Shown: piece after piece, positions 315 through 16,175 of the stretch
How positions within the stretch are numbered: position 1 is the first letter of the stretch
How the letters are laid out: every line of letters starts with the position of its first letter
NCBI GenBank assembly: GCA_950071955.1
Contig: CATMOC010000008.1
Location: 1 to 17,958 of the forward strand
DNA from: an uncultured Mesorhizobium sp.
GTDB taxonomy: Bacteria; Pseudomonadota; Alphaproteobacteria; Rhizobiales; Rhizobiaceae
Direction: 5' to 3'
DNA: 17,958 nucleotides
The notes under the pieces: model-generated
The model's input: only the letters and a program-made list of their open reading frames with translations
The model's database searches: none
Told to the model about the DNA's origin: nothing
Position numbers and translations under genes: made by a program

Positions 315-422
315 ATTGCAATTTTCGAGGATGATCTGAGCGGCGAAGTCGCGCGCGGAGCACGCGCGCTCGTCGTCTATCCGCAAATGCGCCGAAATTC
401 CGACCTCGATCCCGAGGCGCGG
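315..422 (+). pseudogene. hflX: 5' fragment of hflX (ribosome-associated GTPase), cut at a breakpoint
   Basis: About 36 codons that read like the N-terminus of HflX, the GTPase that splits and rescues stalled ribosomes. The frame gives DDLSGEVARGARALVVYPQ and ends in DLDPEAR. In HflX an 'RALVV.P' strand precedes a conserved 'ARLEEA.GLA' helix. That helix is missing: from 423 the sequence becomes antisense tamB-side DNA, so the GTPase domain is absent. No ATG, GTG or TTG lies in frame between the hfq stop (270-272) and the conserved part. ATT at 315 preceded by AAAGG is the only reasonable start, otherwise there is a sequence error. Position directly after hfq is the standard order and supports the call. 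Identification from so short a piece is an inference. Confidence 0.6.
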
Positions 423-476
423 CATTGTCTTGAGGTGGCGATGCAGGGCGGCGCGGGTCTTCGGACCACAGATGCC
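423..476. other. Breakpoint zone between hflX fragment and tamB fragment
   Basis: Left of this zone the + strand reads as hfq-hflX. Right of it the - strand reads as TamB. Inside it neither family continues. On the - strand the tamB frame passes through DGICGPKTRAALHRHL, which resembles the DGxxGPxTxxAL core of a PG_binding_1 domain, so a third short fragment may sit here. No insertion sequence ends, target duplication or integrase site is visible. The exact joint cannot be fixed without reference sequences. Confidence 0.6.
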
Positions 477-2156
477 GTCGGCGACGAGCCCCTGCTCGCC
501 GCGCGCGACGCGTCCCGAGATGGTGGTGGTACCGGAGAGAAGGTTGTCGGCGGCGGGCTGCGCGATGCGCAGGTCGGTCGCCTGGCCGTCGAGGGTCAGA
601 TCGAAGGCGCCGGACAGCGGCTTGAGTTCGCCCGTCGCGGTCAGGTTCGCGCCGCCGCCGAGTTCGCGCCCGGCGAGTTCGGAGAACGGCGCGATGCTCG
701 ACGCCTCGACGCCGATCCTGCCGTCGAACACGTAGTCGGTGATCTGCCCGGCAGCGGTGAGGGCGAGCGACTTGCCGTCGATCAGGAAGTTTTCCAGGCG
801 GATCGGCGAACCGGCATTCCAGCCGCCGTTGATCGCCAGTTCGATGCGGTCGCCGAGCGCTTCGGCGATGTCCTTGCGCTCCGCGTCGATGCCATTCGCC
901 GCGCCGCCGACGTCAAAGGTGATGCTGCGCGTCTGCGGATCGTTGAGGTTTTGCACCTGCCCGCCCAGATCGAGCGCGACACTGTCGATCGAAAACGAGT
1001 CCGAATCGAGCCGCGAGACCGAGACGTCTCCCGACCACTCCCCGCCGGCAGCCTCGCCGAAAGCCAGATTGACCGTGGCTCGCTGGAGCGTCGTCGTTCC
1101 CCCGGGCACCGGAAGAACGACCGGTTCGTAGCCGTCCGCGCCGACATTGGCCCGAAGGGTCAGCGACCGGAGGAACCCGTCCGAGCCGGTCTCAGCCGAT
1201 GCCTGCAATTTAAGTGCCGCGCTGTCGAGTTCGAGCTCCTCGATGGCGACGCCACCGCCGTCCCTGACCGTGCCGTTGACCGTCAGTTCGACATTCTCTC
1301 CGAAGAAGGCTCGGTAGGCCGGCGCGACGAGGCGCGCGATCGGACCCTGGATGTCGGCGGCGAAGCTCAAGCCTTGCGAACCGCGATCGAGTTGCGTCGT
1401 CCCCGTCAACACGCGCTCGCCGTCGGCATCGAGGGTCAGTTGCAGGTCCAGGTCGCCGACCGGGCCTGAGCCCGTCAGGGAGAGCGCCACGGGCGGGCGG
1501 CCCTCGATGTTCAACAGGTTGGCAACGATGCCGTCCGCCGGTTCGTCGAGTGCTAGGTCGACGTTCAGGACCTCCGTCTCGTTGGCATAGCTCGCCGTGA
1601 GGACCAGAGTGCCTCCGGGACCGTCGAGCCTCTGGGTGTTGAGCGTGGTTTCCAGCGCTCCGTTCTGGAGGCTGAAGCTACCGGTGGCGGCGAGCGACGA
1701 TTCGAGCCCGAAGACGGGCTGGCCGAAATGCAGGCGCTCGATCTCGAGGTTCTCAAGGATGATGGCAAGCGGCAGTTCGGGAAGCTGGAACGGCTGTGCT
1801 TCGGGCTGCGGCAGCCCGCCCTCGGCGGGCACCGGCAGGCGGACGAAATCGATCAGGTCGGCGCGCAACGTCTCGATCTCGAGCCTGCCGCGCAGAAGCG
1901 CCGTCCTGTTCCAGTCGATGCCGGCATTCTCGATGCGCAGCCACACGCCCTCGCTGTCGGCCACCGTGATCTCGCGGATGGTCGCTTCGGACGACAGGAT
2001 GCCCTGGATGCCGCTGATCCGGATCTGGCGGTTTTCCGCCGAGAGCTGGTTCTCGACGAAATCGGTGAAGTAGGAGCGTTCTTCTTCCGGCGTATCCTGC
2101 GCGAGCGCCGGCAGGGCGAGAAAGAATGCCAGCAGGGTTATGATGAAACGGGTCAA
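423..2156 (-). CDS. tamB: TamB N-terminal part, translocation and assembly module (3' truncated)
   Basis: TamB is a large inner-membrane-anchored periplasmic bridge that works with TamA in outer-membrane protein assembly and lipid transport. The start is TTG at 2156, whose last two bases are the first two of the tamA TGA (TTGA overlap), implying translational coupling. An N-terminal hydrophobic signal/anchor (TRFIITLLAFFLALPALAQ) is followed by the long repetitive beta-rich sequence typical of the family, including ALLRGRLEIETLRADLI and many SL.A.G.I-type strands, with no stop or frameshift. Convincing TamB sequence ends near GEQGLVADG (about 477), roughly 560 residues in. Family members are usually over 1,300 residues and end in the conserved DUF490/TamB domain, which is absent. 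The frame stays open antisense through hflX and hfq to the window edge, but that extension is not TamB. It is truncated either biologically or by assembly. Confidence 0.82.
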
Positions 2157-4072
2157 AACGCCTGTCCTATTCCGACATAGAAGGCGACGTCGGGGTCGCC
2201 CGGACGCGGGTCGAGCGGCACGGCGACGTCCAGCCTGATCGGCCCCAGGCCGGTAAGATAGCGCACGCCGGCACCGGCGCCGACACGCACCGCCTCGTCG
2301 AATTCGGGGAAGGAATCCGCGCCGACATAGCCGGCGTCCACGAAGCCCACAACGCCGATGCTTTCGGTGACTCTCGCCCTCAACTCCGCCGAGCCCTCGA
2401 TCAGTGAACGCCCGCCGACGATCTGTCCGCCGGGCACCTCCACGCCGATGTTGCGATAGGCGTAGCCGCGCACCGACCCTCCTCCGCCGGCGAAGAAGAG
2501 GCGATCCGGCGCGGTCTCGCTGATCGGCGAGCCGACGAGGCTGCCGACCTTTATCCTGCCGGCCGCGACGAACCGGTTGTCCTCGCCGAAACCGTAATAG
2601 GCGCGACCCTCTGCCGTGAGGACAGCGGCCGCGTTGCCGTAGTTGAATTCGTAGAAGGGCTCGGCGGTGACTTCGGCGTAATAGCCTTCCGTCGCGTCGG
2701 CCTCGTTGTCGCGGCTGTCGTAGACCAGGCCGCCGAGAACCCCGACGCTGGTGAACTCGCGCTCGCCGTAGACCTGGTCCTCGAATTTGGCGTAGCGGCC
2801 GGTGGCAAAAAGGCGCGCCGAGAGTTCCTCAGTGAAGAGATGCGTGAACCCGGCCTGAACCGTGACGCCGGTGCGCGTGTAGGGTTCCAGCACCTCGCGG
2901 TCGCCGAACACGGAGGTGACGAAGTCGGTGTCGGGGGTGAAGATGCCGGGGCGGGTGAAGGTGCCGCCCACCCGATAGGTGAACTCCTCGGGATCGACCC
3001 CGTTTATTCCCGCGACTTTGGCCTCGAGGCGCAAGCGCTCGGCACGGCCGAAGAGGTTCCGGTGCAGCCAGTAGGTTTCCAAGCCGAGGCCGTCGACGGT
3101 CGAATAGGTGCCGCCGACGCCGATGCGGCGCAGCGCACGCTCCTGCACGATGACGCTCATCGGCAGCAGCCCGTCCTCGCCGATCTCCTCGCCCTCCACG
3201 ATGCGCAGAGAACGGAACACGTCGAGACGCGCGAGGCGAGCGCGCGCGCGCTCGACATCGTCGGGATCGAACTCTTGGCCGGTGGTGAGGTTTGCCATGT
3301 AGGCGACGAAGCCGGGGTCCATCCTCTCGGTGCCCTCGACCGACGTCGGGCCGTAGACGGCGCGGCGTCCCGGCTCGACCCTGAGCAGCGCGTCGACGGT
3401 GTCGCTGTCGTGCGCGGCCACCACGCGCCGTTCGGCGATCGCGGCCTTGGCATGGCCCTGCTGGCGCCAGGCCTCGACGGCAAGGCGCTCTGCTTTCAGG
3501 ATAACGCCCGAATTGGCGGGCTCGCCGGCGAGAAAGCCCTCGTCTTCCGGCTGATCCACTTCGTCGCGTCGATTGGTCGCCGGCGGTGCACGGTTCTCGA
3601 TGCGCGCTTCGTCGAACAGGAAGAGCGGTCCCGGAATGACGAGAACGGTAACGGCGGCCGGGTCGGGCAGTATGGTATCCGGCGGCAGGTCGGCCGCTTG
3701 CCGTCCGTCTATGGTGATGGAAATCGAGCCGCCGTAGCGACCCTGTTCATAAAGCGCGGCCAGCAGTCGACGATAGTCGTCGCGCGCTTTGGCGATCAGC
3801 CCGGCTTCGCCGGAGGCCGGCTCGTCGCGATCCCCCCAGAGGTTGGACGCAGCCTTGAGTTCGCTCTCGACCTCGCCGCCGGGAACGACAAACTCCACGG
3901 TGTACGGCTGCGGCTCGCCGATAACGTCGGCCTGCTCCTCCTGGTCGCGCTCGAAGAATTTCTTGCCGAACAGTTCGAATGCGCGCGCCTGTTCAGCAGC
4001 GGTGATCGACAGAGCCGCGACGAGCAACAGGGTCCAAGACGCGGGCCTCCGCGAATTCCGGCAATCATTCAA
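2153..4072 (-). CDS. tamA: TamA, Omp85-family outer membrane assembly protein
   Basis: An outer-membrane beta-barrel of the Omp85 superfamily, partner of TamB in inserting outer-membrane proteins such as autotransporters. The 639 residues begin with a signal peptide (hydrophobic SWTLLLVAALSITAAEQARA, likely cut before FELFGKK). POTRA-type domains fill roughly residues 55-320, and a surface-antigen barrel runs to the C-terminus. The barrel has the Omp85 lid-loop motif VRGY at 534-537 within a glycine-rich run, and ends with a terminal phenylalanine (YVGIGQAF), as outer-membrane proteins do. The start is TTG at 4072. An in-frame TGA lies only four codons upstream, so the start cannot be far off. 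It overlaps tamB by four bases and is clearly its operon partner. Length and motif content are complete. Confidence 0.95.
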   Translation of the reverse strand: MNDCRNSRRPASWTLLLVAALSITAAEQARAFELFGKKFFERDQEEQADVIGEPQPYTVEFVVPGGEVESELKAASNLWGDRDEPASGEAGLIAKARDDYRRLLAALYEQGRYGGSISITIDGRQAADLPPDTILPDPAAVTVLVIPGPLFLFDEARIENRAPPATNRRDEVDQPEDEGFLAGEPANSGVILKAERLAVEAWRQQGHAKAAIAERRVVAAHDSDTVDALLRVEPGRRAVYGPTSVEGTERMDPGFVAYMANLTTGQEFDPDDVERARARLARLDVFRSLRIVEGEEIGEDGLLPMSVIVQERALRRIGVGGTYSTVDGLGLETYWLHRNLFGRAERLRLEAKVAGINGVDPEEFTYRVGGTFTRPGIFTPDTDFVTSVFGDREVLEPYTRTGVTVQAGFTHLFTEELSARLFATGRYAKFEDQVYGEREFTSVGVLGGLVYDSRDNEADATEGYYAEVTAEPFYEFNYGNAAAVLTAEGRAYYGFGEDNRFVAAGRIKVGSLVGSPISETAPDRLFFAGGGGSVRGYAYRNIGVEVPGGQIVGGRSLIEGSAELRARVTESIGVVGFVDAGYVGADSFPEFDEAVRVGAGAGVRYLTGLGPIRLDVAVPLDPRPGDPDVAFYVGIGQAF

Positions 4073-4445
4073 CGCGCTGGATCACTCTCGATTGCGGTGG
4101 ACCCCTCCCAGGCGGCCCGACCGTCCCACACAAACACGACACCTATCATGTCTTCAAGGCGTTACGAATATTTAAGCGTGACGGAAACCCCTTCGAAAGA
4201 CACGGAATCGTGTATTCGCCGCGGCGGGGAAGTCCGCGGCATGTGTCAGGAACCTCTGCGTTCGACACACGTTTTACTGATTGGCCTAAAAAATCGATAG
4301 ACGTCGCGGAAATCGCGATCCGCCTTCGTCGCACCCCTTGAATGCCGGTTGACCTTTGGTAAACCAAAACCGAAGGGGCGTGGCTGCCGGCAAGAGTCCG
4401 GCGCATCGATAAGGGGTCAAGAACGTGACAATCTGGAAGGAAAGG
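4073..4445. other. Divergent intergenic region between tamA and the DM9 gene
   Basis: About 370 bases without a convincing gene, expected to hold promoters for tamA (-) and the DM9 gene (+). It contains several inverted repeats: ACACG-gaat-CGTGT at 4200-4213, GCCGCGG/CCGCGGC at 4218-4240, the long nested repeat at 4334-4378, and GCCGG/CCGGC at 4386-4402. No clear sigma-70 pair can be assigned for either gene. Short frames here have no recognisable content. Confidence 0.6.
4334..4378 (+). promoter_or_regulatory. Nested inverted repeat upstream of the DM9 gene
   Basis: Three inverted pairs share one centre: CCCCTT (4334-4339) with AAGGGG (4373-4378), CGGT (4346-4349) with ACCG (4369-4372), and TTTGGT (4355-4360) with ACCAAA (4363-4368). 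The right arm is continuous while the left has two bulges. A -35-like TTGACC (4349-4354) lies inside it. There is no following T-tract, so it is unlikely to be an intrinsic terminator. It could be an operator or a 5'-leader hairpin of the downstream gene. Function is inferred only from symmetry and position. Confidence 0.45.
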
Positions 4446-4946
4446 ATGCGCGCAGCCGTATCCGCAAGCATACTTCTGTCGGCGGTCCTCACCGTGGCCT
4501 CTCCCACCACGGCCTGGGCGGAGGACTGGGTGAACGGCTCCTACGGCAGCATGCCGCCGCCCACCGTCCCCCCGAATGGCGGCTATGAAGCGAACGGAGT
4601 GCCGCTGTTCGTCTGCCGTGCCGCCGTGAATGGCGGCGTGCATCCGGGCAAGATCCGGAACGGGTTCAACGGCTGCAACATCGGCTATGGCGGGCGCGAG
4701 GAAACGGTGGCGTCCTACCAGGTTTTCACCGGCCACGGCCGCTGGACCACAGCCCAGTTCGGCGCGATCCCGCAGGGCATGATCAACGCAGGGTGGGAAG
4801 CCAACGGGCAGCCACTCGGCGTTTGCCGGGCGCAATGGAGCGGCGGCGTTCACCCCGGCAAGATCCGCAACGGTTTCAGCGGCTGCAACATCGGTTACGG
4901 CGGACGTGAAATCACCGTGAACGTCTACGAAGTCCTGACCTACTGA
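4446..4946 (+). CDS. Secreted protein with two DM9 (DUF3421) repeats
   Basis: A 166-residue secreted protein. Residues 1-25 form a clear signal peptide (hydrophobic ASILLSAVLTVASPTTAWA, cut before EDW). The mature protein is two tandem DM9 repeats, roughly 28-93 and 100-163. Each contains YEANG/WEANG, PL..VCRA, GGVHPGKIRNGF, GCNIGYGGRE and a final Y/V strand. Each repeat has two cysteines (57 and 77; 127 and 147), which could form disulphides in the periplasm or outside. DM9 proteins are best known from animals, where an oyster member is a mannose-binding lectin, so carbohydrate binding is a reasonable but untested guess. I chose ATG 4446 because GGAAGG sits five bases upstream. GTG 4425 with AAGGGG eight bases upstream is an alternative adding seven residues. 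It stands alone with no operon partner. Confidence 0.85.
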   Translation: MRAAVSASILLSAVLTVASPTTAWAEDWVNGSYGSMPPPTVPPNGGYEANGVPLFVCRAAVNGGVHPGKIRNGFNGCNIGYGGREETVASYQVFTGHGRWTTAQFGAIPQGMINAGWEANGQPLGVCRAQWSGGVHPGKIRNGFSGCNIGYGGREITVNVYEVLTY

Positions 4947-5020
4947 GCGCAGAAGCCCGGCAAAGGGAATCGGCGCGGCCGACGTGACCGCGCCACCAAT
5001 GCCGCCAAGGCCGGACCTCG

Positions 5021-5210
5021 GGAGCGATCCGTGCCCAGCTCGGCGATCTTCCGATGCTGGCCGGCGAGGATGCCGGCCGGCACCAGATGCGCCGTCGTTG
5101 CCTGGTTCGTGTTGGCGAAGCCGCTGACGACGCCGATATCGCCCTTCATCATCGCGTCGACCCCCTTGCGGGCGACCATGGCAGGGTCGCCCTGCTTCCG
5201 GTCCGCTCTT
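5021..5210 (-). pseudogene. Remnant of a short-chain dehydrogenase (C-terminal ~60 residues)
   Basis: On the minus strand the frame reads ADRKQGDPAMVARKGVDAMM, then KGDIGVVSGF and ending VPAGILAGQHRKIAELG. This matches the C-terminal tail of classical SDR oxidoreductases, where 'DDPAEVA..GFDAMM.G...VVSG..NK' is followed by 'TP...LAEQHRKMAEPG'. Nothing upstream (from about 5211) reads as the Rossmann-fold NAD(P) domain with its YxxxK catalytic motif, and that DNA runs into the response-regulator gene on the other strand. The frame continues open to 4940. It is best read as a decayed or deleted gene. The match is from memory of the family pattern. Confidence 0.6.
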
Positions 5211-5330
5211 GTGGTCGTCGTTTTCGCCACGAATCTTCGATCCGGGGGGATGTTCCCTGCGCCCGGGCAGCGATCGTCAGCCGGAACCTTCGCGTCGCTG
5301 GCCGATTGATCTTTCGAAGTGGAGCAAATC

Positions 5331-5933
5331 GTGCCGAATCTCGAGGGAATGCGCATCCTGATCGCGGAGGACGAATACCTCCTCGCCGACGATCTGACCC
5401 GGTATTTCGAAGCTTCCGGCGCCAAGGTGCTGGGGCCGGCGCCGACGGTGGAACGGGCGCGGAAGCTCCTCCCGATGGCGCAGGCCGCGATCCTCGATGT
5501 CAATCTCAACGGCGAATACGTCTTCCCGCTGGCGGACGAACTGGCACAGCGCGGCGTTCCCTTCGTGTTCTTTACCGCGCACGACGAGGTCGCGCTGCCC
5601 GAGCGTTTCCGCTTCGTTTCCAGCCTGACCAAGCCCTCGGGTTGGAGCCAGGTGATAGACGCGCTCATGAACCAGATACGCCGAGGTCCGGGAGGCGAAC
5701 GCGCCTCGCTCATCCCGTCCCACGACGACGTCGCCGCACTTCTGCCGAAGCTTCGCCTGAGCGCGAGACTGATGCTTCTGGACCCGAGCGCCGCCGACCG
5801 GTTGGTCGAGCAGACGCTGGAACAGGCGGTGACGGAAATCGGGGTGAGACCCGCCGGAATTTCCACGGCGAGCTGGCTCAACGCGCTCATGGAAAGGACG
5901 CTCGTCAGCCGCGGACGCGACCTGCTCCACTGA
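5331..5933 (+). CDS. Response regulator: REC domain plus sigma-region-2-like C-terminus
   Basis: A 200-residue regulator. Residues 8-115 are a receiver domain with the acidic pair E13/D14 (LIAEDEYLL), phospho-acceptor D56 (AILDVNLNGEY), T82 (FFTAHDE) and K101 (LTKPSG), so all phosphorylation residues are present. Residues about 137-190 (LLPKLR, SARLMLLDPSAADRLVEQTL, ASWLNALMERT) follow the pattern of ECF sigma-factor region 2 ('LP.LR..AR.L..DP..ADDLVQ.TL..A...P.T..RAWLF.I.RN'). No region 4 DNA-binding part follows. In PhyR the sigma-like part comes first and REC last; here the order is reversed. A role in general-stress-type signalling is possible but only inferred. I chose GTG 5331 because GGAG lies six bases upstream; GTG 5319 would add four residues without a ribosome binding site. 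It is monocistronic, ending at a hairpin. Confidence 0.8.
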   Translation: MPNLEGMRILIAEDEYLLADDLTRYFEASGAKVLGPAPTVERARKLLPMAQAAILDVNLNGEYVFPLADELAQRGVPFVFFTAHDEVALPERFRFVSSLTKPSGWSQVIDALMNQIRRGPGGERASLIPSHDDVAALLPKLRLSARLMLLDPSAADRLVEQTLEQAVTEIGVRPAGISTASWLNALMERTLVSRGRDLLH

Positions 5934-5941
5934 GGCGATCA

Positions 5942-5959
5942 GCCACCGGTTCCGGTGGC
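5942..5959. terminator. Perfect palindrome between convergent genes, likely bidirectional terminator
   Basis: GCCACCGG-TT-CCGGTGGC is an 8-bp perfect inverted repeat placed eight bases after the response-regulator stop and directly beyond the stop of the convergent small gene. There is no flanking T-tract, so termination is inferred from position and stem strength. Confidence 0.55.
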
Positions 5960-6121
5960 CTAGCGTCGTGCTGGAAGGCTACTGCCGATACCGGCGCCCA
6001 CCAGGATGCCGATGACGATCCCCAGAACAATGTTTTCGAACAGCGAGACACCGAGCACTGCGCCGGCCGCCAAGCCGCCGGCGATGCCCAGAAGCGTGTG
6101 CAAATACCTGGTTCCAGGCAT
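5960..6121 (-). CDS. Small glycine-zipper-type membrane protein, 53 residues
   Basis: A short hydrophobic protein starting MPGTRYLHTLLGIAGG. It has one or two membrane spans rich in small residues (GIAGGLAAGAVLGVSLF and IVLGIVIGILVGAGIGSSL) and ends in a basic tail PARR. The start at 6121 is supported by GAGGAG about six bases upstream on the minus strand; a longer reading to 6199 has no such support. Repeated GxxxG/AxxxG spacing suggests tight helix packing in the membrane. I do not recognise a named family. It is transcribed divergently from argB and converges on the response regulator, so it is probably a single-gene unit. Being small, its expression needs experimental support, but the ribosome binding site and composition make it more likely real than not. 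Confidence 0.68.
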   Translation of the reverse strand: MPGTRYLHTLLGIAGGLAAGAVLGVSLFENIVLGIVIGILVGAGIGSSLPARR

Positions 6122-6262
6122 GGCTTTCTCCTCGTTTGGAGATTCAATCCAGATATGACGAGGAGGTTCCGACAGCCCCCAACCAGTCTGGCGATTCATT
6201 TGCCCGGCGCGGGCTTTCCCGCTAATACCCCGCCGGACCTATCACGATCCGGGATCTGAACC

Positions 6263-7159
6263 ATGACGAGTGACCTCGCCGCCACCGCCGCAGAACAGGC
6301 GCGCCTTCTTTCGGCGGCGCTTCCCTACATGCAGCGCTACGAGAACAAGACCGTCGTGGTGAAATACGGCGGCCATGCCATGGGCGACGTCGAACTTGGC
6401 CGGGCGTTTGCCCGCGACATCGCGCTGCTCAAGCAGTCCGGTGTCAACCCGATCGTCGTCCACGGAGGCGGTCCGCAGATCGGGGCCATGCTTTCCAAGA
6501 TGGGTATCGAATCGAAATTCGAGGGCGGCCTGCGGGTGACGGACCGCAAGACGGTCGAGATCGTCGAGATGGTGCTGGCGGGATCGATCAACAAGGAGAT
6601 CGTGGCGCTGATCAACGCCGAGGGCGAATGGGCGATCGGGCTCTGCGGCAAGGACGGAAACATGGTCTTCGCGGAGAAGGCCAGGAAGACCGTCGTCGAT
6701 CCGGATTCCAACATCGAGCGGGTGCTCGATCTCGGCTACGTCGGCGAGCCGGTCGAGGTCGACCGTACGCTCCTCGACCTTCTCGCCCGCTCCGAGATGA
6801 TCCCGGTGCTCGCGCCGGTCGCGCCGGGACGCGACGGGGCGACCTACAACATCAACGCCGACACCTTCGCCGGCGCCATCGCCGGCGCGCTCGGCGCCTC
6901 GCGCCTGCTCTTCCTGACGGACGTGCCGGGCGTGCTGGACAAGGACAAGAAGCTGATCGACCAGCTGACGGTCGCGGAAGCGAAGGCGCTGATCGCGGAC
7001 GGGACCATCTCCGGCGGCATGATCCCGAAGGTCGAGACCTGTATCGAGGCGATCGAACGCGGTGTCCAGGGCGTCGTTGTCCTCAACGGCAAGACGCCGC
7101 ACGCCGTGCTGCTGGAGCTTTTCACCGAGCACGGCGCGGGTACGCTGATCGTTCCCTGA
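6263..7159 (+). CDS. argB: Acetylglutamate kinase
   Basis: It phosphorylates N-acetyl-L-glutamate with ATP, the second step of arginine synthesis, in the cytoplasm. The 298 residues carry the amino-acid-kinase fold with the phosphate-binding lysine in VVKYGGHAM (K34), the substrate loop VHGGGPQI (67-73), [37 protein letters not shown] and the C-terminal SGGMIPK motif. The N-terminal helix before residue 28 ([15 protein letters not shown]) is the element that links dimers into the arginine-inhibited hexamer in other ArgB proteins, so feedback inhibition by arginine is likely. ATG 6263 is the natural start; its ribosome binding site is weak (GGGAT). The length is normal. It is monocistronic and ends just before a strong hairpin. 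No arginine-responsive leader was recognised. Confidence 0.97.
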
Positions 7160-7164
7160 TGACG

Positions 7165-7200
7165 CCGCCGCGATCGCCCTAGAAAAGGCGATCGCGGTGG
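7165..7200. terminator. Strong hairpin between argB and the convergent GMC gene
   Basis: CCGCGATCGCC (7168-7178) and GGCGATCGCGG (7187-7197) form a perfect 11-bp stem around the loop CTAGAAAA. The stem extends by a G-T and two G-C pairs to 7165 and 7200. It lies six bases after the argB stop and about 30 bases beyond the GMC stop on the other strand, so it probably serves both. There is no long T-tract on either side. Confidence 0.72.
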
Positions 7201-7230
7201 GCGGTGCGGATTGCCAGAGCCAGCAGTCCG

Positions 7231-8691
7231 TCAGGCCTTGGCTTCGGTCCGGACGCCGACCACTTCACGCGCCAGATGGTCGCCGAGCCTCAGCGCGAGG
7301 GCCACGATCGTGGTCGTTGGCGTGCACTGGCCGGACGTGGTGAAGACGGAGGAGCCTCCCACGAAGAGGTTGGCCATGCCGTGCACCCGGCAATCGCTAT
7401 CGACGACGCTGGTCTTGACGTCCGTTCCCATGCGCGTTCCGCCCATGTGATGGTTGCCCGCCAGTTCCATGTCGTCCGGATAGTCCTCGCCATTCAGGAC
7501 CCAATCGCTGATCTGCACCCGCCCGAGGTCCTTGCGCGCAAGGTCCTCGCCGAACATGCGCATCGCCTCGAGCATGGTATGACGGTCGAGTTCGTCCTTC
7601 TTCCAGTGGAGCTCTATGCGGGGAACGCCGTAGGCATCCCGTTCCGTCGTGGAGAGCGCGACGCGGTTGTGACGGCGGGGCGCTTGCTCCCAGTCGAGAT
7701 GGACACGGGCACTGCACTGGAGCTTGGCGCCGAGCAGGTTCGAGACCCACTCCGCGGTCTGCGGCGCATGGCACGCGAGGTCCGCGATCATGCGCTTGGC
7801 GCCGCTGAACGGCATGGTCTCGACCTGGACGTGGAAGTTGAGCACTTCGCGCTCGGCCATCGCCTGCGGCGACGGGATGAAGAAGGCATGACCTTCGTGA
7901 TCCGGCGTCAGAGCGGCCGTGTCGGTGAGGAAGGCATTGCCGGTCCAGTACATCGGGTGCTCCATCCAGTAGCGCCCGAGCGCGTCTGCATGGGGCACGA
8001 CGCCGCCGTTCGAGCGCTCGTTGGACCACAGCAGCAGGCGCGAGTTCTCGAGCCCTCCGGTCGCCACCACGAAGAACGGTGCCGCGATCTCGCCGGCGGC
8101 AGCGCCGTTCGAAATCAGCTTCGCCGCGGTGATGCGCGTCCCGTCGCCGACCAGTTCACCCGCCGCCGTGTTCAGCAAGAGAGCGATATGCTCGCTGGCG
8201 GCGATGGCCTCGCGGTACTTTTCGCCGAACCTGACGGCTTCGCTCTTCTGCACTTCGAAGCGGTAGAACCGATCCGTCGTCTGCCTGTCGGGCGGAAAGT
8301 CGTGCAGGCCAAGCACGTCGAAGGTTTCCGGAAGGAACGGCTCGATGTCGCCGCGGCGGATCGGCCAGCCAGTGTCGGGGACGTAGGATTTCGCGGTGAA
8401 ATCGTGCGCGTCGAGCACCCGGCACCATCCGGCCCAGTGGTTCGAACAGCCGCCGAGAAACCGCAGCCTCGTGATATCGAGGTCGAAATAGGGATCGCCG
8501 ATGGTAACGCCGCGATAGACGTCCTGCGAATCCTCCGTCCACTCCTCTGCGCCGCCTTCAAGCAGCACCGACGGTATTCCCGCCGCCGCGAGCTTGTTGG
8601 CAATGGTGATGCCAGCGGGGCCGGCACCGACGATGCAGACCTGCGGCGTGAAGCCGGAGGCCGCGAATTGTGCCGCGTCCTGGAAGATCAT
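7231..8691 (-). CDS. GMC-family FAD oxidoreductase
   Basis: A flavoenzyme of the glucose-methanol-choline family, 486 residues, likely oxidising an alcohol or sugar; the substrate cannot be read from sequence. The FAD dinucleotide motif GAGPAG is at 22-27, followed by E in LLEGGAEEW. FLGGCSNHWAGWC is the second FAD region, and the C-terminal block runs from NHHMGGTRMG (413-422) to LFVGGSSVFTTSGQC and TIVALALRLGDHL. The catalytic histidine lies in HHMGG (414/415). The second catalytic position, usually H or N in 'G..NPT', reads T457 in GQCTPT. ATG 8691 is preceded by AAGGAG eight bases upstream and overlaps the upstream stop (ATGA), so it is translated with the small twin-arginine protein. It has no signal peptide of its own. 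It resembles membrane-associated dehydrogenase large subunits whose partner carries the Tat signal, which is an inference. Confidence 0.88.
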   Translation of the reverse strand: MIFQDAAQFAASGFTPQVCIVGAGPAGITIANKLAAAGIPSVLLEGGAEEWTEDSQDVYRGVTIGDPYFDLDITRLRFLGGCSNHWAGWCRVLDAHDFTAKSYVPDTGWPIRRGDIEPFLPETFDVLGLHDFPPDRQTTDRFYRFEVQKSEAVRFGEKYREAIAASEHIALLLNTAAGELVGDGTRITAAKLISNGAAAGEIAAPFFVVATGGLENSRLLLWSNERSNGGVVPHADALGRYWMEHPMYWTGNAFLTDTAALTPDHEGHAFFIPSPQAMAEREVLNFHVQVETMPFSGAKRMIADLACHAPQTAEWVSNLLGAKLQCSARVHLDWEQAPRRHNRVALSTTERDAYGVPRIELHWKKDELDRHTMLEAMRMFGEDLARKDLGRVQISDWVLNGEDYPDDMELAGNHHMGGTRMGTDVKTSVVDSDCRVHGMANLFVGGSSVFTTSGQCTPTTTIVALALRLGDHLAREVVGVRTEAKA

Positions 8692-8861
8692 GCCCGGTCT
8701 CCTTCCACGTCCGTGCGCTTCAGGATCCATCCGTCGACCTCGACCAGGTCCTGGTGGGCGGTCGGACGGATGACGCGGAACAGGACCGCGAGTGCGGGCA
8801 GCGCCAGCAGGGCGCCAAGCAAGGTGCGGCGGCGGATGCCGGTCTTGTCGCTGGGCTTCAT
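8688..8861 (-). CDS. Small twin-arginine-signal protein coupled to the GMC oxidoreductase
   Basis: A 57-residue protein beginning MKPSDKTGIRRRTLLGALLA. It has a basic RRR followed by a hydrophobic segment (LLGALLALPALAVLF) like a Tat signal or single membrane anchor, then a short tail containing DLVEVDGWILKRTDVEG. ATG 8861 has GGAG eight bases upstream. Its TGA overlaps the GMC start (ATGA), a sign of translational coupling and stoichiometric partnership. Some GMC dehydrogenases (fructose, gluconate) have a small Tat-signal subunit that carries the folded large subunit out by hitch-hiking; this gene is far shorter but could be a minimal version. The tail's 'V.GW.LK.sD' pattern is familiar from small proteins beside GMC genes, recalled rather than searched. 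Neither the gene nor its role is experimentally defined here. Confidence 0.75.
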   Translation of the reverse strand: MKPSDKTGIRRRTLLGALLALPALAVLFRVIRPTAHQDLVEVDGWILKRTDVEGDRA

Positions 8862-9038
8862 GTTGCTTCTCCAGTTTCGATGCTTGGACGCCCGGTTCTC
8901 AATCCGGCACGCCTGCCCGATCCGAAGCCAGAACTATGCCATCGCCACCCAAAAAAGGGTTTTGGCGTACCGCAACGTGAGGAGAGGGTTTAGGAAGTGT
9001 TAAACCGGTCCGCCGGTGCGAGGCCGGATGGCGGCCGG

Positions 9039-9944
9039 TCAGCCGATGAGAAGGAGCAGCAGGATACCGCCGACGATCATGACGCAGCCGGCGACTTCCA
9101 ACGGCGTGATGCGCTCCCGGAAGAAGAACACCGAGGAGGCGAAGGTGAAGATCATCTCGACCTGTGCCAGCGCCTTCACGACCGCCGCCTGTTCGAGCGT
9201 CATGGCCATGAACCAGCCGAAGGAGGCGCAGGCCCCTGCGGCGCCCACCAGCAGCGAGAGTTTCCAGGCGCTGCGGATGCGGACTATCTCGGCGCGGTCG
9301 CGAAAGATCATCCAGAACCCCATGAGCAGGGTCTGGAACACGATGACGAAGGCCAGCGTCACTGCCGCCTGCATCATGAAGTTCGGGCCGCCCAGCGACA
9401 GGGACGCGGCCCGGTAGGCGACGGCCGAAATCCCGAACAGCGTGCCGGAAGCGAGGCCGATCAGCGCGTTGCGGCTGACGAGCGACGTGAAGAGCGCCCG
9501 CCAGCTCAGCGTCGTGTGCGCGACGGATATCAGCATGACTCCGAACACGCTGACCGCGATGGCCGCCAGAACACCTGCCGTTACCCTCTCACCAAGGAAC
9601 ATAAGCCCGAAGAGCGCGGCCTGCGCGGGCTCCGTGCGCGAATAGGCGGTGCCGACGGCAAAGTTGCGGAATGAAAAGAGGTGGACGAGCAGGAAGGTCG
9701 CGGCGATCTGGCCGAGACCGCCGATGGCCGCCCAGGCGAGGAAGGTAGTGTTGATGTCCGGAAATCCGTAGCCCGCGAAGCGGTTGAGCCCCAGAACGAA
9801 AAACAGGGCGAACGGGACTCCGAATCCGAAACGGACGAACGTCGCACCCGTGGTGCCCATCACGCCTTTCAGGTGCTTCTGCATCGCCGAGCGAAGGTTC
9901 TGCAGGAACGCGGCCGCGAGGGTGATCGGTATCCAGAGTTCCAT
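9039..9944 (-). CDS. EamA/DMT-family transporter
   Basis: An inner-membrane protein of 301 residues with about ten hydrophobic helices arranged as two EamA repeats, the drug/metabolite transporter pattern. The first half ends with AYSRTEPAQAALFGLMFLGERVTAGVLAAIAVSVFGVMLI and the second with ALAQVEMIFTFASSVFFFRERI and the helix CVMIVGGILLLLLIG. Both repeats show the 'P/Q...F......GE/RE' feature before their last helix. Members export amino acids, metabolites or nucleotide sugars; the substrate is not predictable. ATG 9944 lacks an obvious ribosome binding site. The upstream minus-strand gene (the DHA2 transporter) is 109 bases away, separated by a structured palindromic element, so the two are probably not one simple operon. 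Confidence 0.87.
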   Translation of the reverse strand: MELWIPITLAAAFLQNLRSAMQKHLKGVMGTTGATFVRFGFGVPFALFFVLGLNRFAGYGFPDINTTFLAWAAIGGLGQIAATFLLVHLFSFRNFAVGTAYSRTEPAQAALFGLMFLGERVTAGVLAAIAVSVFGVMLISVAHTTLSWRALFTSLVSRNALIGLASGTLFGISAVAYRAASLSLGGPNFMMQAAVTLAFVIVFQTLLMGFWMIFRDRAEIVRIRSAWKLSLLVGAAGACASFGWFMAMTLEQAAVVKALAQVEMIFTFASSVFFFRERITPLEVAGCVMIVGGILLLLLIG

Positions 9945-9960
9945 GATTTTCGGCCGAGCG

Positions 9961-10028
9961 GTTGCAGCGGGGTGGAGCCGTGGAACGGCTCAGGATGACC
10001 GCTACGTCATCCGAAACACCGCTGCAAC
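9961..10028. repeat. 68-base three-stem palindromic element
   Basis: Three perfect inverted pairs form a cloverleaf-like three-way junction. A 10-bp closing stem GTTGCAGCGG (9961-9970) pairs with CCGCTGCAAC (10019-10028). Inside are GAGCCG (9975-9980)/CGGCTC (9986-9991) with loop TGGAA, and GGATGAC (9993-9999)/GTCATCC (10006-10012) with loop CGCTAC. It sits alone in the gap between the DHA2 and EamA genes. It could be a dispersed intergenic palindromic repeat of the kind common in rhizobia (the GGATGAC/GTCATCC core looks familiar), a terminator or a structured leader of the EamA mRNA. Only one copy is present in this window. It is not a tRNA: stem sizes and loop sequences do not fit. Confidence 0.62.
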
Positions 10029-10053
10029 GGACAGGTCTGCCGCCACGCTTGGC

Positions 10054-11544
10054 TCAGGCCTCCACGGATTGCGGCCGGTGGCCGTGCGCGGGGCCCTGGA
10101 CCGGCACCGGCTTGACGAAAAACACCAGGGCCACGATCAGCGCAAAGGCGGCGCACTCATAATAGAGCGCATTGCCGAGACTTTCGACGAAGGCGGGATG
10201 GCTACCGGCGCCGGCCGCGAGGTTGCCGGCCAGGGTGGAGAAGAAGATCTGTCCCGCGATGGCGATACCCAGCGCCGAACCAATCTGCTGGAAGGATTGC
10301 ATCGCTCCTGAGCCGGAACCCGCGTCGCGCGGCGGCACTTGCGCCAAAACCGCCTGGAAGAGCGAAGAGATCGCGATGCCCATACCGAGACCGGAGATGA
10401 AGAGCGGCGGCAAGAACTGCCAGTGGTCCACCTCGTCCGCCACTCCGCCGACGACCAGGCGCAGCATGAACATCCCCACGACCAGAAGTCCCGCTCCACC
10501 CCCGATGCGCGCGCGAGGCCATCGACCGCGCGCACGCCCCGACACGATCGACGCCACGAGGACACCCAGCGGGAACGGGACGGTCGTCAGGCCCGATTCG
10601 AGCGGGCTGAAATCAAAGCCGGTCTGGAGGAACACCGCCAGGACCATGAAGAAGCCCGCAACGCCCGAAAAAAAGACCGTCACCATCGCGATGCCAAGCA
10701 GGTAGCTATTGTTGGTCAGCAGGCTCGCAGGCAGAAGCTGGCTTTTTCCATTGCGTGCCCGCGAGCGTTCGAAGGCAACGAAGATCAAAGCGGCCACGGC
10801 GGACGACGCGACCATGGCGAATGTCCAGGACGGCCAGCCGAGGCTGTGGCCCTCGATCAGCGGGAAGACCAGGAGGAACACGCACAGCGCCGCGAGCGCC
10901 ACACCGCCGATATCGTGCTTCAGATCGTGGTTCGCCGCCATCGGGGGAAGCAGCCGCCAGGCCGCGGCGACGGTGAGGACTCCGATCGGGATGTTGACGA
11001 GGAAGATCGGCCGCCAGTCGAGGCCATAGATGTCCGCGTTGATGAGGAGACCGCCGGTGAGCGGTCCGGCCACGGAGGCAAGCCCCGCCGAAAGACCGAA
11101 CAGCGAGAAGGCGAAGCCACGCTCCTGCGGCGGGAAGATGACCTGCGTGATCGCCAGCACCTGCGGCATCATCATCGCGCCGGACAGGCCCTGGAGCACG
11201 CGGGCGACGATCAAGGTCGGCATGTCGGGCGCCAGTCCGCACAAGGCCGAAAAGAGCGTGAAGCAGAACACGCCGGCGATGAAGACGCGTTTGCGGCCGA
11301 TCGTGTCGCCCAGCCTCCCGAAGGGAAGAAGTCCGAGCGCGAAGGCCAGCACGTAGGCGGCGACGACCCACTCGATCTGACTGCTCGTGGCGTGAAGGTT
11401 CTCCTGCAGCCGCGGAAGCGCCACGTTCACGATCGTGACGTCGATCAGGTTCATGAAGCCCGCAAGCAGCAGGATGAAGAGCGAGATCCAGCGTCGCGGA
11501 TCAATCTCCGGCTCCGCGTATGGTGCGCGATCGGAACGGGACAT
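10054..11544 (-). CDS. DHA2-type MFS multidrug efflux transporter (EmrB/QacA-like)
   Basis: A proton-driven drug exporter of the 14-helix DHA2 branch of the major facilitator superfamily, 496 residues. The first helix carries the DHA2 signature MNLIDVTIVNVALPRLQ. Motif A is GRLGDTIGRKRVF after helix 2, and the motif C region is LASVAGPLTGGLLI in helix 5. A long hydrophobic C-terminal half has paired helices around FSGVAGFFMVLAVFLQ and GLGMGIAISSLFQAVL. ATG 11544 gives a soluble N-terminus (SRSDRAPYAEPEIDPRRW) and lies 16 bases after the tetR stop, with GAGG about ten bases upstream; earlier starts would overlap tetR. It is co-transcribed with the upstream tetR, so it should be induced when that repressor binds its ligand. 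The drug cannot be predicted. Confidence 0.92.
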   Translation of the reverse strand: MSRSDRAPYAEPEIDPRRWISLFILLLAGFMNLIDVTIVNVALPRLQENLHATSSQIEWVVAAYVLAFALGLLPFGRLGDTIGRKRVFIAGVFCFTLFSALCGLAPDMPTLIVARVLQGLSGAMMMPQVLAITQVIFPPQERGFAFSLFGLSAGLASVAGPLTGGLLINADIYGLDWRPIFLVNIPIGVLTVAAAWRLLPPMAANHDLKHDIGGVALAALCVFLLVFPLIEGHSLGWPSWTFAMVASSAVAALIFVAFERSRARNGKSQLLPASLLTNNSYLLGIAMVTVFFSGVAGFFMVLAVFLQTGFDFSPLESGLTTVPFPLGVLVASIVSGRARGRWPRARIGGGAGLLVVGMFMLRLVVGGVADEVDHWQFLPPLFISGLGMGIAISSLFQAVLAQVPPRDAGSGSGAMQSFQQIGSALGIAIAGQIFFSTLAGNLAAGAGSHPAFVESLGNALYYECAAFALIVALVFFVKPVPVQGPAHGHRPQSVEA

Positions 11545-11560
11545 GTCGGGGCAGCCTCGT

Positions 11561-12154
11561 CTAGGGGTTCTGGAAGCAGCGGAGGAGTTCCGCGCAGATG
11601 GCGTCGAAATGCGCAAGCGACGGATCGGACTGGCGTCGCGAACCCGTCAGCGTGCCGATGACGATCGATGCGGCCGCCTGCGGGTCCAGATCACCGCGGA
11701 AGCTGCCGTCGTCGCGACCGGCTTTCAGGAAATCCGCGATCTGGGCATGCCAGTACGCCCGCATTGGCTCAAGCTCCGCCCGCACCTCGGGATCGCGGCG
11801 GGCACGCTCGCCCAGTTCCGCCATCACGGTGAACAGGTCGATGTTCGATTCCAGATTTTCGCGGAAATCCGCGAACTCCTGGCGCAGGCGATCCACCGGC
11901 GACAGGCCCTGGCGCGGACGGCGCTGATGCTGCCGCACGAAGTCGGTGCGCAGCGATTCCGCCACCAGCCGGACCAGGTCCTGCTTCGTCGGTATGTGGT
12001 AGTGCAGGGTCGCGATGTTGATGCCGACACGGTCGGCTATGTCGCGCGTGCGCAAACCCTCGAAGCCGCGCTCCGCGATGAGGGACCGCGCGGCGTCCGC
12101 GATGTCCTGCTTCCTGTTGTCCTGACGCGGGGTCTCTTCGGGCGCTTCGAGCAT
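11561..12154 (-). CDS. TetR/AcrR-family repressor of the adjacent efflux gene
   Basis: A 197-residue one-component repressor. The N-terminal DNA-binding domain has the TetR pattern: IADAARSLIAERGFEGLRT, then the helix-turn-helix RDIADRVGINIATLHYHIPT and KQDLVRLVAES. The rest is an all-helical ligand/dimer domain ending LLRCFQNP. ATG 12154 is chosen over the TTG at 12160. A perfect palindrome (12157-12172) lies immediately upstream, and a consensus -35 TTGACA sits beyond it. The deduced transcript would start at or next to the ATG, so the mRNA may be leaderless, which fits the missing Shine-Dalgarno sequence. It stands first in a two-gene operon with the DHA2 exporter 16 bases downstream, the classic arrangement for an autoregulated drug-responsive unit. 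Confidence 0.92.
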   Translation of the reverse strand: MLEAPEETPRQDNRKQDIADAARSLIAERGFEGLRTRDIADRVGINIATLHYHIPTKQDLVRLVAESLRTDFVRQHQRRPRQGLSPVDRLRQEFADFRENLESNIDLFTVMAELGERARRDPEVRAELEPMRAYWHAQIADFLKAGRDDGSFRGDLDPQAAASIVIGTLTGSRRQSDPSLAHFDAICAELLRCFQNP

Positions 12155-12156
12155 TC

Positions 12157-12190
12157 TCAATCAATTGATTGATTGATCCCCCACTGTCAA
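12157..12190 (-). promoter_or_regulatory. Promoter and TetR operator of the tetR-efflux operon
   Basis: On the minus strand TTGACA (12190-12185) is a perfect -35 hexamer. The expected -10 position (about 12167-12162) falls in the centre of the perfect 16-bp palindrome TCAATCAATTGATTGA (12157-12172). A third TTGA/TCAA unit extends to 12176, so the tetramer occurs in tandem. Binding here would block polymerase directly. The -10 itself is poor (CAATTG or AATTGA). The start point would be near 12155, next to the ATG at 12154. The operator role is inferred from symmetry and placement. Confidence 0.68.
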
Positions 12191-12233
12191 GCGTCTCCGG
12201 CGCCGGATGCTCGGGCTTGTCCGTGAAGATCAG

Positions 12234-13019
12234 CTATGCTGCAGACGAAACTTGCGGTTCCGGGAGCACGATCCTGTCCCGGCCGGCGCGCTTTGCCTTA
12301 TAAAGACGATGGTCGGCGATCCGGAGGGCCTGTGCGACCGTGACGTCGTTACAAAGTTCGGCGCCGCCGATGCTGACGCTGACCTCCAGGGTCGAGCCGC
12401 CGGGTGCCGCCATCCGCGTCGCTGCAACCTCGCGGCGTATCGCCTCGGCAGTGGAGAACGCAGCCGAGGTGTCGAAAGCGGGAAGATAGACCGCGAATTC
12501 CTCGCCGCCGATCCGTCCCGAGATGCTCTCGGCGCCGGCCTTGCACTTGATGGCCCTGGCGATCTCGACCAGGGCGGCGTCACCCGCCGCATGGCCATGC
12601 GTGTCGTTGATGGACTTGAAGTGGTCCGCGTCGATGATCAGAAGCACTCCGGAGCCACGCCGCGCGCTCGTCGCCTCGACGGCTTTCAGGAAGTTCTCGC
12701 GGTTGAGCAGACCGGTCATGGCGTCGCGGCTGGCGCGCTCGGCCAGCTGGGCATGCGCCTCGGCCAGTTCGGCATGGGCCCGGGCGAGTTCGTCGCGGGA
12801 ACGCGCCACTTCCTCGTGGGCGACTTCTATCCTGTGGTGCTGCAGGAAACCGCGGGCACTGGCCGGCCACGCGATCAGCAAGGGGCAGAGGGTGCTGATC
12901 ATCAGCGCGGAACGGTCGAAGGCCATTCCCTGTGTCTTCAGCACGACCGCCGCCAGGATCAGCGATGCGACCGCCGAAACAAAGGCAACCAGTCCTGATT
13001 TGGCGACGATCGAGCGCAT
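12234..13019 (-). CDS. Membrane-anchored GGDEF diguanylate cyclase
   Basis: It makes cyclic di-GMP from two GTP at the inner membrane. The 261 residues hold two N-terminal membrane helices (about 8-27 and 38-55), a heptad-like coiled linker (65-97, EVARSRDELARAHAELAEAH) and a GGDEF domain from about 98 to 250. The domain is complete: DAMTGLLNR, metal-binding D130 in LLIIDADHFKSIND, THGHAAGD, the signature GGEEF at 171-175, and SVSIGGAEL. The inhibitory I-site (RxxD before the signature) is absent: those positions read G and S. Product inhibition by that site is therefore not expected. No sensory domain is visible beyond the helices and linker. ATG 13019 has GGGGAAG just upstream, partly buried in a small hairpin. 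It lies upstream of tetR on the same strand but is separated by tetR's own promoter. Confidence 0.93.
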   Translation of the reverse strand: MRSIVAKSGLVAFVSAVASLILAAVVLKTQGMAFDRSALMISTLCPLLIAWPASARGFLQHHRIEVAHEEVARSRDELARAHAELAEAHAQLAERASRDAMTGLLNRENFLKAVEATSARRGSGVLLIIDADHFKSINDTHGHAAGDAALVEIARAIKCKAGAESISGRIGGEEFAVYLPAFDTSAAFSTAEAIRREVAATRMAAPGGSTLEVSVSIGGAELCNDVTVAQALRIADHRLYKAKRAGRDRIVLPEPQVSSAA

Positions 13020-13022
13020 TCA

Positions 13023-13039
13023 ACTTCCCCAACGGAAGT
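13023..13039 (-). promoter_or_regulatory. Hairpin covering the diguanylate cyclase ribosome binding site
   Basis: Read on the minus strand, ACTTCC-GTTGG-GGAAGT forms a 6-bp perfect stem with a 5-base loop. Its 3' arm contains most of the Shine-Dalgarno sequence, and it ends three bases before the ATG at 13019. It could reduce translation initiation unless opened. Chance occurrence of a 6-bp stem is not negligible. Confidence 0.4.
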
Positions 13040-13165
13040 ACCCTCGCATCGGGACGTTAAAATGACGATACCGGCGATCCTTAAGAAATCGTTGCGGCGC
13101 ACCCGAAGCGCCGACGGAGCTGTGGCGCCCGTTCATTCCCGGACAAAACATGCGATACATGCCGC

Positions 13166-13873
13166 ATGACGAATCAACCCGATCCGGCGCGTTTCGAAGG
13201 CATCACCGACTGGGTGTTCGACCTCGACAACACGCTCTACCCTCACCACTCGAATCTCTTCTCGCAGATCGACGTGAAGATGACGGCCTACGTGTCGGAA
13301 CTCCTGCAACTGCCCCGCGACGAAGCCCGAGCCTTGCAGAAGGAACTCTATCTCCAGTACGGAACCACTCTGAACGGGCTCATGGAGCGCCACGGGATCG
13401 ATCCCGACGATTTCCTCCAGAAAGTGCACGACATCGACTATTCCTGGGTCGCACCGCATCCGGAACTCGGCGAGGAAATCAGGAAGCTGCCGGGGCGCAA
13501 GTTCATCTTCACCAACGGCGACCGCAACCATGCCGAACGCACCGCGCGCCAGCTCGGCATCCTCGATCATTTCGACGACATCTTCGACATCGTCGCGGCC
13601 GGGCTGGTGCCGAAGCCTGCGCGCGAAACCTACGACAAATTCTCCGCCCTGCACCGGGTCGCCGGCCCGCAGGCTGCCATGTTCGAGGACCTCGCCCGCA
13701 ATCTCGCGGTCCCCAAGTCGCTCGGCATGACCACGGTGCTGATCGTTCCGAAGAACTTCGAGCCGACGTTCTCGGAAATCTGGGAGCGCAATCCCGACGA
13801 CGCGGACGACGTGGATTACGTCACAGACGATCTGGCCGAATTCCTGCGGACGATCAACCGGCGGAACGCCTAA
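13166..13873 (+). CDS. HAD-family pyrimidine 5'-nucleotidase
   Basis: A cytoplasmic phosphatase of the haloacid dehalogenase superfamily, of the type annotated as pyrimidine 5'-nucleotidase (SDT1-like), which dephosphorylates UMP/CMP-type nucleotides. The 235 residues contain all four HAD motifs: FDLDNTLYPH with nucleophile D19 and acid/base D21, T116 in FIFTNGDRNHAE, K150 in LVPKPARETYDKF, and E174/D175 in MFEDLARNL. The helical cap between motifs I and II (about 27-100) includes LYLQYGTTLNGLM, a stretch typical of this subfamily. ATG 13166 has no strong ribosome binding site. The gene is commonly found near dapD and argB in rhizobia, as here, though the reason is unknown. It converges with the LOG-family gene across a hairpin. 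Confidence 0.93.
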   Translation: MTNQPDPARFEGITDWVFDLDNTLYPHHSNLFSQIDVKMTAYVSELLQLPRDEARALQKELYLQYGTTLNGLMERHGIDPDDFLQKVHDIDYSWVAPHPELGEEIRKLPGRKFIFTNGDRNHAERTARQLGILDHFDDIFDIVAAGLVPKPARETYDKFSALHRVAGPQAAMFEDLARNLAVPKSLGMTTVLIVPKNFEPTFSEIWERNPDDADDVDYVTDDLAEFLRTINRRNA

Positions 13874-13882
13874 TCCGGCCAG

Positions 13883-13904
13883 ACCGGGCGGGCGAAGACC
13901 CGGT
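13883..13904. terminator. Hairpin between convergent HAD and LOG-family genes
   Basis: ACCGGG (13883-13888) and CCCGGT (13899-13904) flank a ten-base loop in the 30-base convergent gap, touching the stop codon of the minus-strand gene. A terminator role is suggested only by position; there is no T-tract. Confidence 0.4.
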
Positions 13905-14746
13905 TACGGAATCTCGTAGAAGCGCCGGATGCAGTCCCAGGCTTCGTCCGCGGTGTCGGCATAGTCGATGATGTGCTGGTCGCCGGGCGATATTGTGCCC
14001 TGCTCGGCGAGGAAATCGAGATCGATCGCGCGTTCCCAAAACGACCGGCCGAAGAGGATGACGGGCACCCGCTCCATCCGCCCGGTCTGGATCAGCGTCA
14101 GCGTCTCGAAGAACTCGTCCATGGTCCCGAAACCGCCGGGGAAGATCGCGACGGCCTTGGCGCGCATGATGAAATGCATCTTGCGGATCGCGAAATAGTG
14201 GAAATTGAAGCACAGTTCGGGCGTGACGTAGAGGTTCGGCGCCTGCTCGTGCGGCAACACGATGTTGAGCCCGATCGAGGGAGCCCCGACATCCGCCGCC
14301 CCGCGGTTTCCCGCCTCCATGACGCCGGGGCCGCCTCCGGTCACGATCACGAACTCGCGATAGCGCGAAGTCGCCGAGTGCTCCGAGCACAGCCGAGCGA
14401 ACTGGCGCGCCTCCTCGTAGTACCTGCTGTTGGCCTCGAGGTTCTTCTGCTGAACCTCGTTCTTGGCCGCCCAGGCCTCGCCGCCGGGCTCGGGAATACG
14501 CGCGCCGCCGAACAGGATCACCGTCGAGCGGATGCCGCGTTCGGCAAGAATCATCTCCGGCTTCATCAATTCGAGCTGAAGCCTGACCGGACGCAGGTCC
14601 CGTTGCGTGAGAAAATCGGCATCGTCCCACGCCAGCCGGTAGGCGGGCGACTGCGTCTGCGGCGTGTGCGGAACGCTGCGGGCACGCTGCAGATCCTCGT
14701 CCGAATGGGGAAGCGGCGTCCAGCCGCCTTCTTTCCGTTCATTCAT
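13904..14746 (-). CDS. LOG-family (TIGR00730-type) nucleotide phosphoribohydrolase-like protein
   Basis: A cytosolic Rossmann-like protein of the LOG/YgdH group. Family members cleave nucleoside 5'-monophosphates to the free base and ribose 5-phosphate; some activate cytokinins and others act on AMP or related nucleotides. The 280 residues carry both diagnostic motifs: [13 protein letters not shown] at 137-149 and [12 protein letters not shown] at 203-214, the glycine-rich phosphate site with its catalytic glutamate. An extra N-terminal segment of about 70 residues precedes the core ([12 protein letters not shown]), as in the longer class found in alphaproteobacteria. ATG 14746 has no clear ribosome binding site. 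It is transcribed divergently from dapD, with 142 bases between them that must hold both promoters. The substrate cannot be told from sequence. Confidence 0.9.
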
Positions 14747-14888
14747 GGGTATTGTCCGGCCCCTTTTGGTTGCGCCTGTCCCGGGCGCGTCGCGATTGAC
14801 CCTTCATGAGGCTTCAAATAGGTTCCGCGCGACTTTCCGACAGCCTATGGCCTTGCCTCTTAACAGCACGTGTAACGGAGCCGCCCGC

Positions 14889-15743: not shown

Positions 15744-15812
15744 TATTGCTCATAGCTCGAAGCCCACTCGGCTCGTTCGACGCTTTCCATCGCGACGGGG
15801 GGACGGCTTCGC

Positions 15813-16175
15813 TTGCCTGACGCATCCAAGATCAGCTGGTTCTTCTTCGGTTTCCAGGGCCGGATCGACAGACAGGCGTTCGCGCTCGGAGGGCTGCTCC
15901 TGTACGTCGCGCGGCTGTATCCGGTCTACCGCATCATCGCGACCACCGATGAAGCGGCACAGTCGTTCTGGGGCGGGATCTTCCTGATCGTTATCGGCGT
16001 CGCCCTCGTCTCGCACGTGGCGATGTGCGCCAAGCGCCTGCACGACATCAACCGGTCCGGCTGGCTGGCACTCCTGTTCGTCGTCGGCGATATCCTGATG
16101 TTCCTGGTGCTTTGCTTCCTGCCCGGCACCAAGGGACCGAACAGGTTCGGCAGCCAGACCAACGCCCCCCGGTAG
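15813..16175 (+). CDS. DUF805 membrane protein
   Basis: A small inner-membrane protein of 120 residues in the DUF805 family, of unknown function. It shows the family landmarks: FFGFQGRIDRQAFALG near the N-terminus, the loop AKRLHDINRSGWLALL at 73-88, and FLPGTKGPNRFG near the end. Three to four hydrophobic helices lie at about 24-42, 52-70, 83-102. The only usable start after the in-frame stop at 15753 is TTG 15813, with a G-rich run (GGGGGGACGG) roughly ten bases upstream. It sits between dapD and dapE, five bases before the next gene, so it is probably co-transcribed with them. That position is, from memory, conserved in Mesorhizobium relatives, but a link to lysine or peptidoglycan synthesis is only a guess. 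Confidence 0.88.
   Translation: MPDASKISWFFFGFQGRIDRQAFALGGLLLYVARLYPVYRIIATTDEAAQSFWGGIFLIVIGVALVSHVAMCAKRLHDINRSGWLALLFVVGDILMFLVLCFLPGTKGPNRFGSQTNAPR

Follow-up and report, generated by a model that had tools for sequence, protein, structure and literature searches.

The first 474 bases of the window (the whole stretch of 17,958 nucleotides analysed here, and one contig, C8, among the 611 of a 3.97-Mb assembly with 70% completeness and 1.8% contamination) would be, as we conclude with very high confidence from the sequence comparisons, a chimeric tip on a metagenome-type contig and thus an artefact of the assembly or of the library, both kinds being covered by this statement. The junction between hfq-hflX and tamB is not a real feature; it is present in the sequence and almost certainly absent from the organism. 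The two sides of the contig come from different organisms, the left one Novosphingobium-like and the right one rhizobial and of the genus of our reference genome, and the true continuation of tamB is present elsewhere in the same assembly. An earlier, sequence-only reading of this DNA had already preferred a chimeric contig, and this preference was borne out by the foreign left piece, the collinearity of the right part with the reference, a host hfq on another contig (C201) and the rest of tamB on a third (C202). With the first 474 bases read as misjoined foreign DNA, the apparent breakage of two core genes becomes an artefact.

The window's own genome (G000) was compared with four genomes of the same genus (G001 to G004), among which G001, near-complete at 5.3 Mb in two contigs, served as the reference; the comparison with G001 at the DNA level spanned only about 0.43 Mb, the host hfq locus included. 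For hfq the comparison set comprised 41 genomes (G000 and 40 relatives), the class-wide DNA search covered 385 genomes of the host's class, and the loci from named genomes used for the left piece are the best 80 of 453 relatives. The features of the window are collected in Table 1.

Table 1 Features of the window, with the evidence on which each assignment rests
Feature	Position	Strand	Evidence
Second Hfq domain of a two-domain Hfq, foreign fragment of Novosphingobium type, left side cut by the contig end	1..272	+	PF17209 E=3.1e-23; NF010691
Start of hflX, foreign fragment from the source of the hfq piece, about 35 codons (start codon uncertain)	318..422	+	DNA alignment to Novosphingobium loci
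Third fragment, ~51 bases long and flanked by the two joints; TamB frame; perhaps peptidoglycan-binding-like	424..474	-	Weak Pfam matches below cut-off
Host tamB, first ~560 codons, remainder on C202	475..2156	-	90% amino acid identity over 559 residues to G001; DNA collinear from 475
Host tamA, intact	2153..4072	-	Omp85 PF01103 E=4.2e-51; collinear with G001
Remainder of the host contig, following G001 collinearly as far as the right end, the extra 16186-16968 apart	4073..17958		DNA comparison with G001

Judged by its profile and DNA matches, the left piece (bases 1 to 422) encodes the second domain of a two-domain Hfq, followed by the start of hflX, both Novosphingobium-like. The sequence-only reading had placed hfq at the left end, and the Hfq match agrees with this, but the gene, for a two-domain Hfq, is represented by its second half alone: the profile match takes in positions 89 to 175 of the 176-position model NF010691, at 139.8 bits against a cut-off of 270, and the window opens inside the gene, whose first half lies beyond the contig end. 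All 80 loci among the best 80 of 453 relatives carry two Hfq domains in one frame. Within the same best 80 of 453, the closest protein relative was Novosphingobium sp. PC22D (92% amino acid identity) and the first 26 rows were all titled Novosphingobium; lower rows also included further Sphingomonadaceae and a small number of records with loose names. One reference genome record, L085, probably misnamed or contaminated, has a two-domain hfq of Novosphingobium type under the title 'Actinobacteria bacterium 21-64-8'.

The DNA searches gave a similar picture. Among the 385 class genomes the left piece matched its own genome first and then four genomes, all of family f31 (E 1e-46 to 2e-26), before the next match at E 3e-13. 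The alignments to Novosphingobium loci cover hfq, continue across the spacer and enter the first hflX codons, with 82.9% identity over window positions 31-441 in a gapped alignment (L057) and 75.7% over positions 1-423 (L054). Window bases 1-474 found no match in the stretches of G001 that were compared, the host hfq locus among them.

The host's own hfq-hflX, as far as contig comparison can place it, is on C201 and away from tamB. This contig carries a second hfq and the start of hflX, and its bases 354-6753 are 92.3% identical to the corresponding G001 locus, with what look like putative ntrY-ntrX-trkA and aminotransferase genes beside hfq-hflX. The G001 positions of the two genes are 3.11 Mb (hfq) and 1.02 Mb (tamB). 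An hfq match was obtained in 40 of the 41 genomes, as one copy in 39 and two copies in G000. The proteins of the two G000 copies share 54% identity, and the window Hfq is 47-57% identical to the hfq copies of the 39 relatives and of C201. We considered and rejected an hfq paralogue of the host genome, because identity to the hfq of the 39 relatives is only 47-57%.

The sequence-only reading had both genes cut at the same point, and although the two cuts are real, the alignments place them about 51 bases apart. There are two joints, one near 421-423 and one at 475, and they enclose a third scrap of about 51 bases. On the left, the window's HflX start reads RRNSDLDPEAR at its end, and the last codon ends at 422, the position at which the reading had seen the N-terminus stop. 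Among the best 80 of 453 relatives, 52 Novosphingobium-type loci align beyond base 330; their alignments end at 421-423 in 19 cases, at 414 in two and at 378-402 in 29, and the other two extend to 441 and 454, both with gaps. On the right, the minus-strand TamB match reaches base 475 in G001 and bases 471-476 in the three other same-genus genomes, which fits the earlier description of a TamB running cleanly for about 560 residues and losing its character near 477: the match to G001 covers 559 residues, and its DNA goes down to 475.

A single joint was also considered and was rejected because bases 424-474 match neither tamB of G001 nor those hflX loci of Novosphingobium with which they were compared. 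In the TamB frame of the minus strand, the short stretch gave matches to PG_binding_3 (E=0.013), PG_binding_1 (E=0.025) and zf-HC2 (E=0.042), all below cut-off, and we weakly prefer a peptidoglycan-binding-like reading. A tblastn search with the 25 residues encoded at window positions 413-487 found no relative in plasmids or phages. The reading frame is kept with TamB across the joint at 475; at the joint near 422, where the two sides lie on opposite strands, no frame is kept.

To the right of the second joint the contig behaves as host DNA. It is collinear with G001 over 475-16185 (87.4% identity) and 16969-17958 (90.3%), and the window's ArgB is 84-88% identical to those of Sinorhizobium and Shinella (the top ten among 101 matching plasmid records); this search set held plasmids only, so the result speaks for the neighbourhood at order level and names no genus. 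The host thus looks rhizobial by sequence. The impression of a sphingomonad-like left part on an otherwise rhizobial contig was supported when the taxon of each half was compared separately, with the closest Novosphingobium loci and f31 genomes on the left, and on the right G001 collinearity and the ArgB matches.

The host tamB is most likely whole, its remainder being on C202, 89 reference bases away. The TamB gene starts at 2156, the G001 ORF is 1531 amino acids long, and C202 carries 940 codons of tamB. All 6737 bases of C202 are collinear with G001, in which tamB resumes 89 bases past the point where C8 stops. C8 and C202 are most likely neighbours parted by a short gap, because C202 resumes tamB 89 G001 bases further on and the same order is found in the three other same-genus genomes. 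The two contigs have no common word of 18 bases, and the true host sequence across 475 is therefore found on no contig. The tamB gene is collinear across the joint in all four same-genus genomes. In their tamB regions window bases 1-470 had no match and the hfq-hflX/tamB junction was not found; its presence in related genomes is what the sequence-only reading had named as evidence against a chimera.

The host part holds two further observations. The 783 bases at 16186-16968 have no counterpart at the same place in G001 and hold most of an ORF (16025-16897) without a Pfam match. Positions 4425-4946 encode a predicted 173-amino-acid protein with two DM9 stretches (PF11901, E=1.1e-26), a domain known mainly from animals.

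We also looked at the ends of other contigs of the assembly. Fifteen contigs were aligned to G001, namely C8, C201 and C202, chosen for the question, and 12 that matched four 20-kb stretches of G001 strongly, many short matches being left aside. At 12 of the 30 contig ends at least 50 bases were unaligned to G001: on the left in C8 (474), C201 (353), C67 (193), C171 (189), C402 (398, or 59 counting weak matches), C372 (77), C186 (50) and C193 (4696), and on the right in C171 (544), C62 (1972), C445 (180) and C193 (195). In a separate comparison of 20 large contigs with 418 kb of G001, none mapped collinearly there, and C8 and C202 alone did so; C12, C18 and C19 gave matches of at least 300 columns at 65-70% identity.

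Five of the 12 unaligned ends (C8 left, C201 left, both ends of C171 and C67 left) carried gene scraps in the family searches that look foreign or mosaic. On C171 these are a fragment of polyphosphate kinase on the left (L254, 1-189; E=4e-15, far below cut-off) and, on the right (L254, 6909-7452), an AsnC scrap over the cut-off with an SMP-30-like scrap below it. The left tip of C67 (L252, 1-193) has a flavodoxin fold over the cut-off and an azoreductase match below it, with a DUF6987 match below cut-off on the opposite strand. For the tips of C171 and C67, the break in the match to G001 together with the scrap points to a foreign origin. Both C171 tips had their best DNA matches among the 385 genomes outside f31 (weakly on the left, E 7.5e-9), so the contig-end scraps seem to derive from several sources. 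At the C171 left tip the host match begins at 190, whereas alignments to two relatives of the foreign gene reach positions 194 and 199, an overlap of 5-10 bases at this joint. Frame-keeping, which was looked at because the frames were open and to which no statistic attaches, serves as a hint: the C201 joint at 353 keeps one frame with HflX, and by our reading the left joints of C171 and C67 do so with putative host genes.

In C201, bases 1-353 (L003) form a second chimeric tip: the host HflX continues without a frame break into a scrap of a 2-hydroxyacid dehydrogenase (26.7 bits, above the cut-off of 25.1) and then into a DUF3501-like scrap below cut-off, which makes a false ORF of 342 amino acids. 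The family scan found no family at the tips of C402, C372 and C193 right, and these ends, with C62, C186, C445 and the left end of C193, may be real strain differences. Bases 1-4696 of C193 (L261) are unaligned to the G001 stretch where the right part of the contig maps, and could be either real accessory DNA or another chimera.

How the C8 tip arose can be proposed in outline. A fragment from a co-sequenced Novosphingobium-like organism, holding the end of a two-domain hfq and the start of hflX, and about 51 further bases of another origin would have been joined to the host contig proper at 475. Each join may have been made at a short word common to both sources, like the 5-10 bases at the C171 left joint, and where such words are shared by two coding sequences, G+C-rich genes would tend to be joined in the same codon phase. 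The error could lie in assembly or contig extension, or the library could have held a chimeric molecule; an assembly error seems to us the more likely of these. The library case, in which ligation, PCR or template switching at short shared words during whole-genome amplification made a physical molecule present in the library and in no cell, we hold to be possible but doubtful. The short overlap at C171 suits template switching as well as short-overlap misjoining, and a frame is kept at C8 475, C201 353 and, by our reading, the left ends of C171 and C67; however, the C8 joint near 422 keeps no frame, none is seen on the host side of C171 right, and serial, very short pieces at contig ends suit low-coverage contig extension equally well.

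Explanations in which the junction exists in a cell fare much worse. Real differences between strains can also leave a tip unaligned to G001, which counts against a chimera in general, and the contig does contain the joint; yet a rearrangement or deletion in the sampled strain that brought hfq-hflX to tamB is very improbable, since the left piece groups with genomes that have only their class in common with the host, and with Novosphingobium loci, a host-type hfq lies elsewhere, the rest of tamB is 89 reference bases away and tamB is collinear in all four same-genus genomes. The inversion or deletion that the sequence-only reading had kept as its alternative is rejected because of this collinearity and the fit of C202. 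Horizontal transfer of a Novosphingobium hfq-hflX fragment into the host tamB would account for a left piece foreign to the host family, but the fragment reaches the first base of the contig, stops within a gene and is followed by an unrelated scrap, and other gene scraps, with best DNA matches in other families, sit on the ends of C171, so that we give this possibility hardly any weight. We think it just as far-fetched that a host sub-population truly bears the fragment in tamB, and that the repeated, partly frame-keeping scraps at contig ends come from short DNA genuinely taken up at short shared words.

With the tip read as an artefact, nothing in the window supports the loss of hflX or tamB by the host or an adjacency of hfq-hflX and tamAB, and it would be wrong to credit the host species with a second hfq on the strength of the Novosphingobium-type copy. 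Since similar tips occur on other contigs, gene fragments within a few hundred bases of contig ends are unsafe without the reads, in particular for claims about gene neighbourhood, fusion proteins or gene transfer.

Misassembly, in which fragments of several sources are assembled together, occurs relatively rarely next to mis-binning according to the GUNC paper (PMC8201837), and this argues against chimeras being frequent in general. C8 resembles the chimeric contigs treated there in that one contig holds several sources, and differs from them in that its foreign part is only 474 bases of gene fragments at a contig tip, for which reason a method based on gene counts, such as GUNC, could easily pass it. 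In a benchmark (PMC11261854), the choice of assembler is reported as the main factor behind the number of chimeric contigs. Closer in kind are the chimeric extensions of contig ends described in the ContigExtender paper (PMC7953547), where, as may have happened in C8, an end is wrongly extended with incorrect reads; in the mis-assemblies presented there the added sequence came from another region of the same viral genome, whereas the source in C8 would be another bacterium. The two-domain Hfq itself is known from Sphingomonadales, as described for the Hfq of Zymomonas mobilis (PMC2877685), and the window piece matches the second domain of this type (NF010691), although, unlike the Sphingomonadales proteins, it is only a fragment and foreign to the host.
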